A program made the translations under genes and the position numbers. A stretch of 64,000 nt of DNA, taken from NCBI GenBank assembly GCA_036378175.1, contig DASUWY010000051.1, positions 1 to 64,000 of the forward strand, read 5' to 3'. The notes below the pieces were generated by a model. That model was not told the origin of the DNA and ran no database searches. It was given only the letters and a program-made list of their open reading frames with translations. Shown in pieces: positions 34,972 to 40,117 of this stretch (position 1 is the first letter of the stretch; every line of letters begins with the position of its first letter). The stretch is from Thermoleophilaceae bacterium (GTDB lineage: Bacteria > Actinomycetota > Thermoleophilia > Solirubrobacterales > Thermoleophilaceae).

Positions 34972-36087
34972 TCAGACCTCCGGCATCCGGCCGCCTGTGA
35001 GCCGCAGGTAGCGGGAGGCTGCCTCGGCTCGGTTCCCCGCGTGCAGCTTCCGGAGGATGTTGTTCACGTGGAACTTCACGGTGCCCTCTGAGATCACCAG
35101 CTCGGCCGCCACCGCGCCGTTTGTCTTGCCTCGAGCCATCAGGCGCAGCACGTCGAGTTCGCGGCGGGTCAACAGGCCGTCGAAGATGGCGCGGTCGTCG
35201 CGGGCGTCGCTTGGGAGGGGTTCGGCCAGGGCGGATGGTGTGCCGGCCGGGGCCGGCTCTTCTGCGTTCAGGTCCAGCGCGGCGTCGCTCAGCTGTCCGC
35301 TGCGGGCGTTCAGCCAGTCGAGGAAGCGGCGGGTTTGGTCGCGCTCCCGGCGCAAGGTGCGGCGCAGCGTTGCCGACTCGAGAACCTGCGCGTAGCCCAG
35401 GGCGAACGTCCACAGGACGTCGCGGTCCAGCGCGTCCACCGATCGGCCGGACGGCAGCTTGTCCGCGTGCAGCAGGCCCACAACCTCGCCCTGAATGACG
35501 ACAGCGGCCGCGGCGTACGACTCCCAGCCCATCAGATCTGCCATCTCGCGGTGCACGCGGGGGTGGAGGCGGGCCTCCAGCACGATCGTCGCGCGGCGGC
35601 GGCGCATCACCTCGGTCTCGATCATCGGATGCTGAAGCCGCGGCGCCAGCTCGCGCAGAGCCTCGAGCATTCGCGTGGCTCCTTCCGCGTCGCCGGCGAA
35701 GAACGCGGACTCGGCTATCAACCGCCCGTCGCGAATCCGGCTCAGCAGCGCGCGGTCGAACTCGGACGCCTCGCACAGTTCCTCGGGCGCGCGCGAGACC
35801 ATCACGCTCGGGGATGTGATCTCGCGCAGGCGGACGAGCGCGGCGTGCACTTGCTCGAGCGCGTCGAAGCGGCGGGAGAAGCGGCGGCGGAGTAGGTCGA
35901 GCTGCAGGCGGTGGAGCTCGGTTGCCTGCGCCCATGGCGCCTCCGAGTCGGCCAGGTGCAGCGCGCTCGTGACCGCGTCCACCGCCTGCTCCACCTCGGG
36001 CAGCTCGGTGCCGAGTAGAGACGAAGCTTCGGCCAGCGCTCGCTCCAGCCGCCGGGCCAGCTGCTCCTCCACCGGCGCGACGGTCAT
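34972..36087 (-). CDS. LuxR-family regulator with GAF-like domain (copy 2)
   Basis: A 371-residue protein. The C-terminal LuxR HTH at about 305-362 has LTRRELDVLRLMARGKTNGAVAAELVISEGTVKFHV. A GAF-like middle (about 85-240) includes FDRALLSRIRDGRLIAESAFF and GWESYAAAAVVIQGEVVGLLHAD, and the N-terminal part is helical. The signal is unknown. It overlaps the preceding paralogue by 4 bases (ATGA), so the two are made together and may form heterodimers. Confidence 0.88.
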   Translation of the reverse strand: MTVAPVEEQLARRLERALAEASSLLGTELPEVEQAVDAVTSALHLADSEAPWAQATELHRLQLDLLRRRFSRRFDALEQVHAALVRLREITSPSVMVSRAPEELCEASEFDRALLSRIRDGRLIAESAFFAGDAEGATRMLEALRELAPRLQHPMIETEVMRRRRATIVLEARLHPRVHREMADLMGWESYAAAAVVIQGEVVGLLHADKLPSGRSVDALDRDVLWTFALGYAQVLESATLRRTLRRERDQTRRFLDWLNARSGQLSDAALDLNAEEPAPAGTPSALAEPLPSDARDDRAIFDGLLTRRELDVLRLMARGKTNGAVAAELVISEGTVKFHVNNILRKLHAGNRAEAASRYLRLTGGRMPEV

Positions 36088-37106
36088 TCCGGCAACCCCG
36101 CGGTCATGCGCTCGTAGCGAGCGACAGCGTCGGCGCGATTCGCGGCCCGCAGCTTCCGCAGCACGTTCTTCACGTGGTACTTCACGGTGCCCTCGGCCAC
36201 GACCAAGGTCTTTGCGATGGCGACGTTCGTGTTCCCGCGCGCCATCAGTCGCAGCACCTCGAGCTCACGCGGCGTCAAGACCTCGTCGAGGTCATCAGCG
36301 GGACCGTCGCCGTTCACCGGCACTACTGACGAGTCGGACAGGCGGCTGAGTCGCGTGTTCATCCAGTCCACGGCACCGCGCAGCTCGGACCGATGAGCGC
36401 GCAGCCGCCCGCGCAGCACCGCGCGCTCGAACACGGCGGCCAGCCCCTCGGCGTAGGCGGCAAGCGTCTCGCGGTCGATCTCGTCCAGCGCGCGCCCGGA
36501 CAAATGAGCATCCGCGTGCACGAAGCCGACCGTGGACCCGCCCAGAGCCACCGTCGCCACCGCGTACGACTCCCATCCGAGCAACTCAGCCCAGCGGGTG
36601 TCGCTGCGCGAGCCGACGGAAACGAGCTCCACGCCCTGCCGGCGCGCCAGCTCTTCTTCCACGAGCGGGTAGGCGAGGCGCACCGGCGGCAGGTTCGGCG
36701 AGTCACCCTCCCGAACCCACGCCGACATCGCGGCAAACGCGCCATCGCCAAGGCTGCTCACCACCACGCGATCGAACTCCGACGCGTCACCGAGACCCTC
36801 GGCCGCCCGGTCGAGGATCCCCGTGGCGGAGCCGATCTCACCCAGCCCGCGCACGGCTTCCTGCACACGCTCCAGGGCGTCGAGGCGCCTCAGGAGCTGC
36901 CGCTCCACAAGCTCTCGCTCGAGCTGGTGGAGCTCCACGAGGAGTCGCCACAACGACCCCTGGGAACCCGCCCGAGCGTCCAATTCCTCCGCCACAACCC
37001 CCAGCGCCGACTGCACCCGCGCGCCAGCCGCCTGTAGTTCATCCGTGCCAACCGCGGCCCGTGCGGCCGAAATTGCCTCGGATACCTGTCCATAGGTATC
37101 AGCCAT
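36084..37106 (-). CDS. LuxR-family regulator with GAF-like domain (copy 1)
   Basis: A protein of about 340 residues, clearly a paralogue of the next gene: the same FDRVVVSSLGDGAFAAMSAW and GWESYAVATVALGGSTVGFVHAD blocks, and a LuxR HTH LTPRELEVLRLMARGNTNVAIAKTLVVAEGTVKYHV. ATG at 37106 is preferred; ATG at 37124 or GTG at 37166 would lengthen it. It is divergent from the c-di-GMP riboswitch unit, and the regulatory palindrome CACCTAAAGGTG (37177-37188) lies in the shared gap, so it may also act on that unit. Confidence 0.86.
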   Translation of the reverse strand: MADTYGQVSEAISAARAAVGTDELQAAGARVQSALGVVAEELDARAGSQGSLWRLLVELHQLERELVERQLLRRLDALERVQEAVRGLGEIGSATGILDRAAEGLGDASEFDRVVVSSLGDGAFAAMSAWVREGDSPNLPPVRLAYPLVEEELARRQGVELVSVGSRSDTRWAELLGWESYAVATVALGGSTVGFVHADAHLSGRALDEIDRETLAAYAEGLAAVFERAVLRGRLRAHRSELRGAVDWMNTRLSRLSDSSVVPVNGDGPADDLDEVLTPRELEVLRLMARGNTNVAIAKTLVVAEGTVKYHVKNVLRKLRAANRADAVARYERMTAGLPE

Positions 37107-37230
37107 CCGCCTGGTGAAGAGCATAAGTGGGGCCTGCAAAACGGCGGCAATACCGTCCCCAAACACCTGACGAAGTCACCTAAAGGTGGGATGCCCCCGG
37201 TCGATCCTCGCGGTTGCAGCACTGCACCCA

Positions 37231-37304
37231 AAAAGGCAAACCCGTCGTGAGGCGGGGACGCAAAACCAGAGGTCTCGCAAGGAAGCGAGATAGCTCGGTT
37301 GCCT
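37231..37304 (+). promoter_or_regulatory. Cyclic di-GMP-I (GEMM-I) riboswitch
   Basis: The aptamer shows the class I c-di-GMP architecture. Closing stem AGGCAA/TTGCCT (about 37234-37239 with 37299-37304). Hairpin CCCGTC-GTGA-GGCGGG with a GNRA tetraloop (37241-37256). The conserved joining strand GACGCAAAACC. A second hairpin TCTCGC-AAGGAA-GCGAGA (37273-37290). The invariant TAGC before the closing strand. It lies 45 bases upstream of the 31-residue peptide gene. The closing strand overlaps by two bases the 5' arm of the next hairpin, a plausible switch. Confidence 0.9.
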
Positions 37305-37338
37305 GCTGCGGCGTTTCGGCGCCAAACGCAGGCAGCAG
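37303..37338 (+). promoter_or_regulatory. Expression-platform hairpin before the peptide ribosome site
   Basis: CTGCTGC (37303-37309) pairs with GCAGCAG (37332-37338), and inside it GCGTTT pairs with AAACGC. There is no T-tract, and the Shine-Dalgarno AAGGAGG (37339-37345) follows at once, so control is more likely at translation or folding than at intrinsic termination. Its 5' arm competes with the riboswitch closing stem for bases 37303-37304. Confidence 0.6.
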
Positions 37339-37349
37339 AAGGAGGACAG

Positions 37350-37445
37350 ATGTACAAGTTCAAGCTCCGTAACCCGAAGCTGCTCCTTTCGATCGCAGCT
37401 CTCGTCGCGCTCGTCGTGGACGCGGGGGCCGGCTTCAAGTTCTAA
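37350..37445 (+). CDS. 31-residue membrane microprotein under c-di-GMP riboswitch control
   Basis: The ORF has a textbook Shine-Dalgarno (AAGGAGG, 5 bases before the ATG). It encodes 31 residues: a basic start MYKFKLRNPK, a hydrophobic segment LLLSIAALVALVV at about 11-23, then DAGAGFKF and a TAA. It is predicted to insert as a single short helix with the basic end inside. It has no signal-peptidase site and no cysteine. I know no family for it. It lies between the c-di-GMP riboswitch and a GGDEF-EAL gene, so its level should follow the second messenger that its neighbour makes or degrades. Codon use and the ribosome site argue for real translation. Confidence 0.75.
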   Translation: MYKFKLRNPKLLLSIAALVALVVDAGAGFKF

Positions 37446-37457
37446 GCGAACGGCCAT

Positions 37458-37490
37458 CGGGCGCCTCGGTGTGGTTTGCCGGGGCGCCCG
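37458..37490 (+). terminator. Hairpin CGGGCGCC/GGCGCCCG after the microprotein gene
   Basis: Perfect 8-bp arms (37458-37465, 37483-37490) with a 17-base loop lie 12 bases after the microprotein stop. Only a short GGCTTT follows, so termination may be partial, letting some transcripts read into the GGDEF-EAL gene 18 bases on. Confidence 0.5.
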
Positions 37491-37508
37491 TCACGGCTTT
37501 CAGGTGCC

Positions 37509-39569
37509 ATGAACCCTTCGAAGCTGCGGCCCGTTCACATCTACTGCACCGCCGTCGGCTTGATTGGGGCGGCGCTCCTTGGCGTGCTCATCGAGCTCGC
37601 GCCGCCAAGCGTTCATGTGTTCACGGGGGTCGCCTTCCCGGCGCTTGCGGCGAGCGTGATCCTCGGAGAGCTCTTCCCGCTCGAGCTGCCGCGACGCTCG
37701 GGCGATGGCGAGGTGACGGTGTCCACGATGTTCTCGTTCGCACTCGTCCTGGGCGTGGGCCTGCTCCCCGCGCTCGCGGCGCAGCTCGCCGCCTCGATCG
37801 TGCAGGACATCATCGCCCGCAAGCCGCTCTGGCAGGTGGGCTTCAACATCGGCCAGTACACGCTGTCGCTCGGCGCGGCCGCCGCCGTGGTTCAGCTGCT
37901 GCTCGGCCACACGCTGCTCATCGGCCACAGCCTCGGCGCGATCGAGCTGCTCGTGGTGATGGCCGCCGCGGCTGCGTTCTTCGCCACCAACCTACTTCTC
38001 GTCGCGCGCGCCACCACGCTGTACGTCGGCACGCCGTACCTCGCCGCGCTGCGCACCGACCTCGGTTTCGGCATGTCCGTGAGCGCGGTGCTGCTGTGCC
38101 TCGCGCCGGTGCTCGTCACGGTGCTCGATGCGAGCCCGATTCTCTTCCCGCTCCTGTACGTGCCGCTACTCGGTGTGTACGCCGGCGGCCGCCAGAGCGT
38201 GCGCACCGCAAAGGCCGAGCACATGGCCACGCACGACAGCCTCACCGAGCTGCCGAACCGGCGCTGGTTCCGCGACGCCGTGAACCGCGCGGTGACCGGC
38301 CGCAACCTGCGCAACGCCGGCCTGCTGCTGATCGACCTCAACCGTTTCAAGGAGGTGAACGACACGCTCGGCCATCACCACGGGGACAACGTGCTGAGAC
38401 AGATCGGCCCCCGCATCAAGGCGGCCTTCGGGGAGGAGGACTTCGTCGCGCGCCTCGGCGGCGACGAGTTCGCCGTGTTCATGCCAGGTGCCGACACGGC
38501 CGCGGTGGAAGCCGCGGTCGACCGCCTTCAGGACGCCGTCACCGCCCCGATCTTCGCCGACGGCATCAGCATCGAGATGGACGCCAGCGTCGGTCTCGCC
38601 TGGTACCCCTTCCACGGCGGCGACGTGGACACGCTGCTCGAGCGCGCCGACGTTGCGATGTACCGCGCGAAGGCCACTCAGTGCCAGCTCGTCACCTACC
38701 GGCCCGAGGACGACTACCACAGCCCCGCGCGCGTGGCGATGGCCACCGACCTTCGCCGCGGCATCGAGGAGAACCAGCTCGTGCTCCACTACCAGCCGCA
38801 GCTCGACCTGGCGCTCGGCGTGCCCGTGGCGGCCGAGGGGCTCGTGCGCTGGAACCACCTGCAGAAGGGGCTGGTTCGCCCGCTCGAGTTCATCGAGGTG
38901 GCAGAGCACGCGGGCCTGATCAAGGACCTCACGTACAAGGTGATCGAGCTCGGGTTGAAGGACCTGCGCGAGTGGCAGGACGCGGGGCGCGAGTTCTCGC
39001 TCTCGCTCAACATCAACGTGCGCAGCCTCCTCGACCGCCACTTCCCGCGCGAGGTGCAGCGGCTGCTTGCGCTGCATGGCGTGAGCGGGAGCGCGCTCAC
39101 CCTCGAGCTCACCGAGAGCTCGCTGATGGCCGACCCTGCGATGGCGAGGAAGACAATGGGCGAGCTGAGCGAGCTCGGCGTGTCGTTTGCGATCGACGAC
39201 TTCGGCACCGGCTACTCGTCACTCGCCTACCTGGCGGACCTGCCCGTGCGCGAGCTGAAGATCGACCGTTCGTTCGTGATGGCGATGAACGCGGACACGC
39301 GCAACCGGATCATCGTGCGCTCGACGATCGAGCTGGCGCGCAACCTCGGACTGCGCACCGTGGCTGAGGGGATCGAGGACCTGGAGACGTTCGAGCGTGT
39401 GCGCGAGCTGGGTTGCGAGCTCGCGCAGGGCTACTACATGAGCAGGCCGGTGCCGTTCAACGAGCTCGAGCGCTGGTGGGTTGCCAACACCGCCCCGGTG
39501 GATGCCAAGGTCGCTGCGGAGCGGCGCGCGGCGACTGTCGCGCCGGTGCCGAGGACGGCGATCGCCTGA
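37509..39569 (+). CDS. Membrane-bound GGDEF-EAL protein (diguanylate cyclase/phosphodiesterase)
   Basis: A 686-residue protein. The N-terminal ~240 residues hold about seven or eight membrane helices (a MASE-like sensor). GGDEF (317-321 in RLGGDEFAVF) is intact; the RxxD inhibitory site is absent (GEED in its place). The EAL domain starts with EGL at 443-445, with NINVRS, ELTESSL, IDDFGTGYSSL, LKIDRSF and TVAEGIE all intact. Both activities are thus possible on paper. The ATG at 37509 has only a weak ribosome site (AGGTG). It overlaps the DUF5317 gene by one base. The riboswitch upstream suggests feedback by c-di-GMP. Confidence 0.93.
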   Translation: MNPSKLRPVHIYCTAVGLIGAALLGVLIELAPPSVHVFTGVAFPALAASVILGELFPLELPRRSGDGEVTVSTMFSFALVLGVGLLPALAAQLAASIVQDIIARKPLWQVGFNIGQYTLSLGAAAAVVQLLLGHTLLIGHSLGAIELLVVMAAAAAFFATNLLLVARATTLYVGTPYLAALRTDLGFGMSVSAVLLCLAPVLVTVLDASPILFPLLYVPLLGVYAGGRQSVRTAKAEHMATHDSLTELPNRRWFRDAVNRAVTGRNLRNAGLLLIDLNRFKEVNDTLGHHHGDNVLRQIGPRIKAAFGEEDFVARLGGDEFAVFMPGADTAAVEAAVDRLQDAVTAPIFADGISIEMDASVGLAWYPFHGGDVDTLLERADVAMYRAKATQCQLVTYRPEDDYHSPARVAMATDLRRGIEENQLVLHYQPQLDLALGVPVAAEGLVRWNHLQKGLVRPLEFIEVAEHAGLIKDLTYKVIELGLKDLREWQDAGREFSLSLNINVRSLLDRHFPREVQRLLALHGVSGSALTLELTESSLMADPAMARKTMGELSELGVSFAIDDFGTGYSSLAYLADLPVRELKIDRSFVMAMNADTRNRIIVRSTIELARNLGLRTVAEGIEDLETFERVRELGCELAQGYYMSRPVPFNELERWWVANTAPVDAKVAAERRAATVAPVPRTAIA

Positions 39570-40117
39570 TGTTGCTCGTGATCGCAGCCGTGCTGCTGGT
39601 GGTGAGCGTGCCGCTCGCCGGCGGCAGCGTGCGGCGGCTCGCCCAGCTCGACATCCGCGCGGCGTGGACGGTGCTCCTGTCCGCCGCGATTCAGGTGGGG
39701 ATCACGAGCGCGCACCGCGGCGGGAGCCACACGTTCCACGTGGTGCTCCACTTCGTGTCCTACGGGCTCGTGGTGTGGTTCCTGCTCGCCAACCGCCGCT
39801 TCGTGGGAATGCCGATGCTCACGCTCGGCGCCGCCTTGAACGTGCTCGCGATCACCGTGAACGGCGGCGTGATGCCCGCCTGGAGCACCGCGATCCGGCT
39901 TGCCGGCCTCGACGAGAAGGCGGGCTTTGACAACTCGGCGCCCGTGTCGCACGCGCACCTGCAGTTCCTCGGCGACGTGATCCCGGTGCCGGGCCCGTGG
40001 CCCATCGGGAACGTGCTCAGCATCGGCGACCTGCTGATCTTCGCCGGCGCGTTCGTGCTGCTGCACTATGCCTGCGGGTCGAAGCTGGCGGTGCGCGGCC
40101 GGGCTGTTCGCGCGTAG
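39569..40117 (+). CDS. DUF5317 family membrane protein
   Basis: A 182-residue protein with five or six hydrophobic segments. ITVNGGVMPAW near the middle and the later GDVIPVP and NVLSIGDLLI match the DUF5317 pattern as I recall it. Function unknown. It starts on the ATG overlapping the GGDEF-EAL stop (TGATG), so the two products are made together, and it may be an accessory of the c-di-GMP enzyme. Confidence 0.8.
   Translation: MLLVIAAVLLVVSVPLAGGSVRRLAQLDIRAAWTVLLSAAIQVGITSAHRGGSHTFHVVLHFVSYGLVVWFLLANRRFVGMPMLTLGAALNVLAITVNGGVMPAWSTAIRLAGLDEKAGFDNSAPVSHAHLQFLGDVIPVPGPWPIGNVLSIGDLLIFAGAFVLLHYACGSKLAVRGRAVRA

Follow-up and report, generated by a model that had tools for sequence, protein, structure and literature searches.

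A 31-codon open reading frame between a c-di-GMP-I riboswitch and a GGDEF-EAL gene, located in the window (the whole 64,000-nucleotide stretch of Thermoleophilaceae DNA that was analyzed), founds a small-protein family that, judged by sequence and gene order, belongs to a membrane sensor module. Relatives of the peptide-sensor pair occur across the Actinomycetota, which suggests that one class of bacterial receptors has a small partner protein of wide distribution. The aptamer, the coding conservation, the family and the recurrent gene neighbourhood are directly established. The reading toward which we lean, with slightly better than even confidence, is that the peptide is a translated single-pass membrane protein which, acting in trans, is dedicated as subunit or regulator to the MASE9-type sensor domain encoded just downstream. 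Its basic N terminus would stay inside and its GxKF/GxKW end would reach the outer face, and by binding to the sensor the peptide would set how the latter responds, irrespective of the output domain. In this genus the operon would also be under the riboswitch, so that c-di-GMP feedback on the synthesis of both peptide and enzyme, through a putative ligand response, is plausible. We infer translation, topology and physical binding, as well as any influence on activity and the sign of riboswitch control, and gene neighbourhood does not in itself prove contact between peptide and sensor.

Table 1. Features of the riboswitch-peptide-sensor locus (window positions)
Feature	Position	Strand	Basis or remark
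c-di-GMP-I (GGC type) riboswitch aptamer	37226-37307	+	cmscan, RF03167
Aptamer P1 pairing	37235-37242 (GGCAAACC) with 37297-37303 (GGTTGCC)	+	
Hairpin competing with aptamer helix P1	37298-37338	+	sequence and fold analysis
Shine-Dalgarno GGAGG	37341-37345	+	sequence; 4 nt 5' of peptide ATG
31-codon peptide ORF MYKFKLRNPKLLLSIAALVALVVDAGAGFKF, founding member of the peptide family	37350-37445	+	
Stem-loop in the gap between peptide and sensor gene	37458-37490	+	without U run
GGDEF-EAL gene	37509-39569	+	Pfam GGDEF and EAL
Membrane sensor domain (MASE9-type) of the GGDEF-EAL protein	37509-38216	+	profiles, Pfam matches of relatives, AlphaFold, Foldseek
GGDEF domain	38226-38678	+	Pfam PF00990, 1e-39
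EAL domain	38748-39449	+	Pfam PF00563, 4.4e-71
DUF5317 membrane protein gene	39569-40117	+	Pfam PF17248, 5.6e-29

A first-pass annotation made from the letters alone had described most of this layout, and its full class I aptamer, competing hairpin, 31-codon frame with a good ribosome site and hairpin ahead of the enzyme gene were all recovered. The Rfam covariance search that it proposed did return a class I match (64 bits against a gathering threshold of 59, E 8.5e-13), to RF03167 (c-di-GMP-I-GGC), a same-clan relative of the RF01051 model that it had named. Pfam and direct reading also agree with its account of a GGDEF-EAL protein with both sites intact: the GGDEF motif is preserved, the EAL motif occurs as EGLVRW, and the cyclase lacks an RxxD site, since GEED occupies the four positions that end five residues ahead of GGDEF. 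The DUF5317 gene start overlaps the GGDEF-EAL stop codon (TGATG). Two LuxR-type regulator genes that overlap each other (34972-37166, minus strand), one with a GAF domain, diverge from the riboswitch operon, and the promoter region may be common to both.

The peptide frame carries a coding signal beyond chance and, by its substitution pattern, is under purifying selection. A same-genus genome holds two copies of the peptide, 100% and 90% identical, each with an aptamer 5' and the same GGDEF-EAL gene 3', and the changes are mostly synonymous, bearing out the expectation that the frame would be conserved in relatives keeping the riboswitch. In another genus of the same family, a 62% identical peptide lies 5' of the orthologous GGDEF-EAL gene. 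Comparison of the window peptide with one relative revealed 5 synonymous and 0 non-synonymous changes, and pN/pS pooled over 12 close pairs was 0.19, the pairs not being independent and some sharing sequences. The peptide family is new with respect to Pfam and NCBIfam, the two libraries scanned, where the window peptide had no match above cut-off; the earlier remark that it fits no described family thus stands.

Members of the family are about 30 residues long, with a basic N terminus, one hydrophobic helix and a GAGxKW-like C terminus; conservation extends to both termini, and plausible ribosome sites precede the peptides tabulated. Searching 354 genomes of the class, many of the sampled genomes being incomplete drafts, with the sensor-domain profile alone, we found matches in 88 genomes, and in 26 of the 29 top sensor loci (window counted) the peptide was encoded directly upstream. 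Because this profile derived mostly from peptide-bearing proteins, lower-ranking sensor members were also fetched. Distant peptides found by profiles in other families of the class likewise lie 5' of membrane proteins, with GGDEF-EAL, GGDEF plus HD-GYP, or HD-GYP as outputs; weak matches of the peptide profile within long frames were taken as chance unless a sensor gene came next. In a phylum sample the sensor domain occurred in 119 of 366 genomes, and outside the class the GAGxKW type is found about 50-170 nt 5' of GGDEF-EAL, HD-GYP or histidine-kinase genes. Most other GGDEF-EAL paralogue loci inspected had no such peptide upstream, nor did a distant sensor in Nonomuraea, and a plasmid collection yielded no match for the window sensor domain.

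Many of these other sensor genes are preceded, at a distance of about 7-149 nt, by a second kind of peptide (W-type), which begins with M-x-[QHEK]-W, contains a single helix and has a W-rich end terminating in W. These were chosen by ribosome site and hydrophobicity, which is itself a selection step, and the picks are supported by the N terminus common to them. Altogether, 133 sensor loci divided into 48 with the GAGxKW type, 34 with the W-type and 51 without a detected peptide, several of the last being cut by a contig end or by the fetched stretch. At four loci (L124, L126, L129 and L140) two family peptides stand in tandem before one sensor gene.

DUF5317 probably belongs to this receptor module as well, as a third component. 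Its gene lies near 34/48 GAGxKW-type loci, compared with 0/33 W-type loci and 1/52 loci without a peptide (1/85 for the others combined; one of the 52 was later reassigned as W-type), an association with a Fisher p of 3e-19 that ignores shared ancestry and cut contigs. The gene is placed either 3' of the sensor gene or divergently 5' of the peptide; at L152 and L171 a unit of peptide and DUF5317 diverges from the sensor gene. A role as a known protease or exporter was rejected, the model having no PDB fold match, and we found no paper on DUF5317 in the open-access literature. Beyond the phylum, DUF5317 matches turned up in Thermotoga maritima and Thermus composti.

Because the outputs joined to the sensor domain differ (GGDEF-EAL, HD-GYP, GGDEF plus HD-GYP, or histidine kinase), the sensor domain is the element that these loci share. 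Among 68 aligned sensor domains, 43 match MASE9 (Pfam PF20972) at E <= 0.01 (best E 8e-13), and that of L233 exceeds the Pfam cut-off; the window's own domain matched 0 Pfam families, PF20972 included. Among relatives, a few have weak Pfam matches to CbiM or to the ECF riboflavin S-component. AlphaFold modelled the window sensor domain with high confidence, and the best Foldseek matches of that model in the PDB are consistently S-components (probability near 1, target TM 0.5-0.68), with best E values of only 0.01-0.07, above 0.001. In a read-through chain the sensor was confident and the peptide reached only about 50 pLDDT, so that no docking of the peptide is predicted. The open-access literature yielded nothing on the peptide-sensor pair or on a small MASE9 partner.

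The riboswitch looks like a genus-level, local addition to this peptide-sensor module. Both same-genus copies have aptamers that fall just under the Rfam gathering thresholds (57.6 of 59 and 65 of 65.9), and the combination of riboswitch, peptide and sensor was seen only at copies of the host's genus. The first-pass annotation had proposed a c-di-GMP-dependent effector or a partner of the GGDEF-EAL protein; the genomic partnership held, and the tie to c-di-GMP and the riboswitch did not. The peptide was present at 0/30 other riboswitch loci inspected in the class (L005-L034), which eliminates the riboswitch as its defining partner; a riboswitch was looked for and not detected at the other-genus copy; and related peptides also occur 5' of genes for histidine kinases devoid of c-di-GMP domains.

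Within the leader, GGTTGCC can either close P1 with GGCAAACC or begin the competing hairpin, which ends immediately 5' of the ribosome site, and both same-genus copies preserve this alternative. Energy-model folds of the window riboswitch gave no direction (ligand to on or off). A UCCUC upstream in the window could mask the ribosome site, and we assigned no direction because this element is missing from one same-genus copy. Reading the hairpins as intrinsic terminators was rejected, since they lack a U run.

Several alternatives bear on the same observations. That the conserved frame is a by-product of conserved RNA or shared ancestry, encoding a functionless peptide, would draw on the nearby aptamer and hairpins, which are conserved at the RNA level; given the low pN/pS, the conservation of the peptide in genomes without the riboswitch and its recurrence across the phylum while the DNA changes, we consider this highly improbable. 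A cis-acting leader, in which pausing of the nascent chain near the KW-stop together with the stem-loop would control sensor gene expression, is a good deal more credible, if still doubtful. The peptide is seen only 5' of sensor or DUF5317 genes, and a 30-residue chain would fit wholly inside the ribosome tunnel. The stem-loop between the two genes is kept in both same-genus copies, structured gaps recur in many GAGxKW-type loci, and across 48 such loci the gap shows more structure than its shuffled versions do (mean z -2.06). Furthermore, in seven loci of one family (0.014 expected) a second micro-ORF ending in KW-stop follows within 8 nt. These micro-ORFs (for example, MQVRNGRKW) have no membrane segment and only the KW-stop ending in common, and count against the subunit reading, since a membrane subunit does not explain them. 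Control by a paused leader sits poorly, however, with the conserved N terminus, the membrane-helix composition and the varying stop codon (TAG, TAA or TGA); no known arrest motif was recognised in the peptide, and W-type loci often leave little room for a hairpin.

The peptide could instead be the precursor of an exported signal, whose short C-terminal piece (released, for example, after an [SAG]GA site) is read by the sensor, perhaps with DUF5317 as processing or export partner. We think this unlikely; its logic would be akin to that of AgrD-AgrB-AgrC, but feeding c-di-GMP or a histidine kinase. It would account for a polytopic membrane protein and a membrane receptor recurring together with the peptide and for a sensor model resembling ligand-binding S-components, and residues near the peptide end obey, by eye, the small-small rule of signal peptidase. 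The tails of W-type peptides are also suggestive: 13/33 contain an exact four-residue repeat (mean for shuffled tails 0.07, in a test that ignores shared ancestry), with seven motifs that vary by lineage (QFTW, QLTW, NFTW, QFGW, SFGW, SWGW and NHQW). An export leader would not, however, need the conserved N terminus; DUF5317 matches no protease or exporter fold and did not occur at the W-type loci that were fetched; and some C termini run on by about ten residues. A fuller proposal, that of an undescribed Actinomycetota peptide-sensing module with an exported C-terminal motif, an S-component-like receptor and a DUF5317 accessory, driving c-di-GMP turnover or histidine kinases by lineage, is a little more doubtful still. 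It is the tail repeats, the structured gaps and the KW-stop micro-ORFs that keep the exported signal and the cis-acting leader under consideration beside the membrane partner that we favor.

Known systems offer partial parallels. MgrB, of 47 residues, inhibits the sensor kinase PhoQ (PMC8404706, PMC10576120). The likeness is that of a small membrane protein acting on a membrane sensor, binding in the window being proposed only, whereas the window peptide belongs to another sequence family and is encoded beside a multi-output sensor domain. Prli42 is about 31 residues long, and thus similar to the window peptide in size and kind but with a different partner, and we claim no sequence link. It is a conserved membrane miniprotein of the Listeria stressosome and part of a signalling complex (PMC9840623). 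While the sensor domains of relatives match MASE9, the window's own does not. The predicted fold may be like that of ECF S-components (RibU, ThiT, CbiM, NikM), which are transporter parts; the window sensor is instead fused to signalling domains. The genes for AgrD, AgrB and AgrC, a small peptide, a membrane protein and a membrane receptor, lie together, much as peptide, DUF5317 and sensor are co-encoded here, but the window peptide has neither a cysteine nor an NCBIfam match, and DUF5317 has no known fold match. Among c-di-GMP-I riboswitches the window aptamer is canonical, and unusual only in the gene that it precedes.

Proteins of this length usually escape annotation, so that a receptor class of wide distribution may have a partner that has gone unnoticed. 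Binding of the peptide to the sensor, if it occurs, would offer a way into the question of what signals MASE9-type domains perceive, which bears on many c-di-GMP enzymes and kinases, and the varied outputs on one sensor-peptide pair, along with the lineage-specific repeats, present clear experimental openings. Loci with four-residue repeats include L156, L160, L168, L179, L183, L185, L198 and L200, and the micro-ORFs, at L123, L133, L138, L139, L141, L143 and L146, start 3-8 nt past the peptide stop.

The host genome contains one further strong c-di-GMP-I riboswitch match (L002, contig C47 7693-10771), situated among four prepilin-like genes and 5' of a row of type IV prepilin-like genes. Sensor genes of this superfamily in one family of the class have a c-di-GMP-I riboswitch some 2 kb 5' on the same strand, as at L029 and L195, where a long ORF intervenes between the riboswitch and the sensor gene, and also at L196, L202, L205, L214 and L216.
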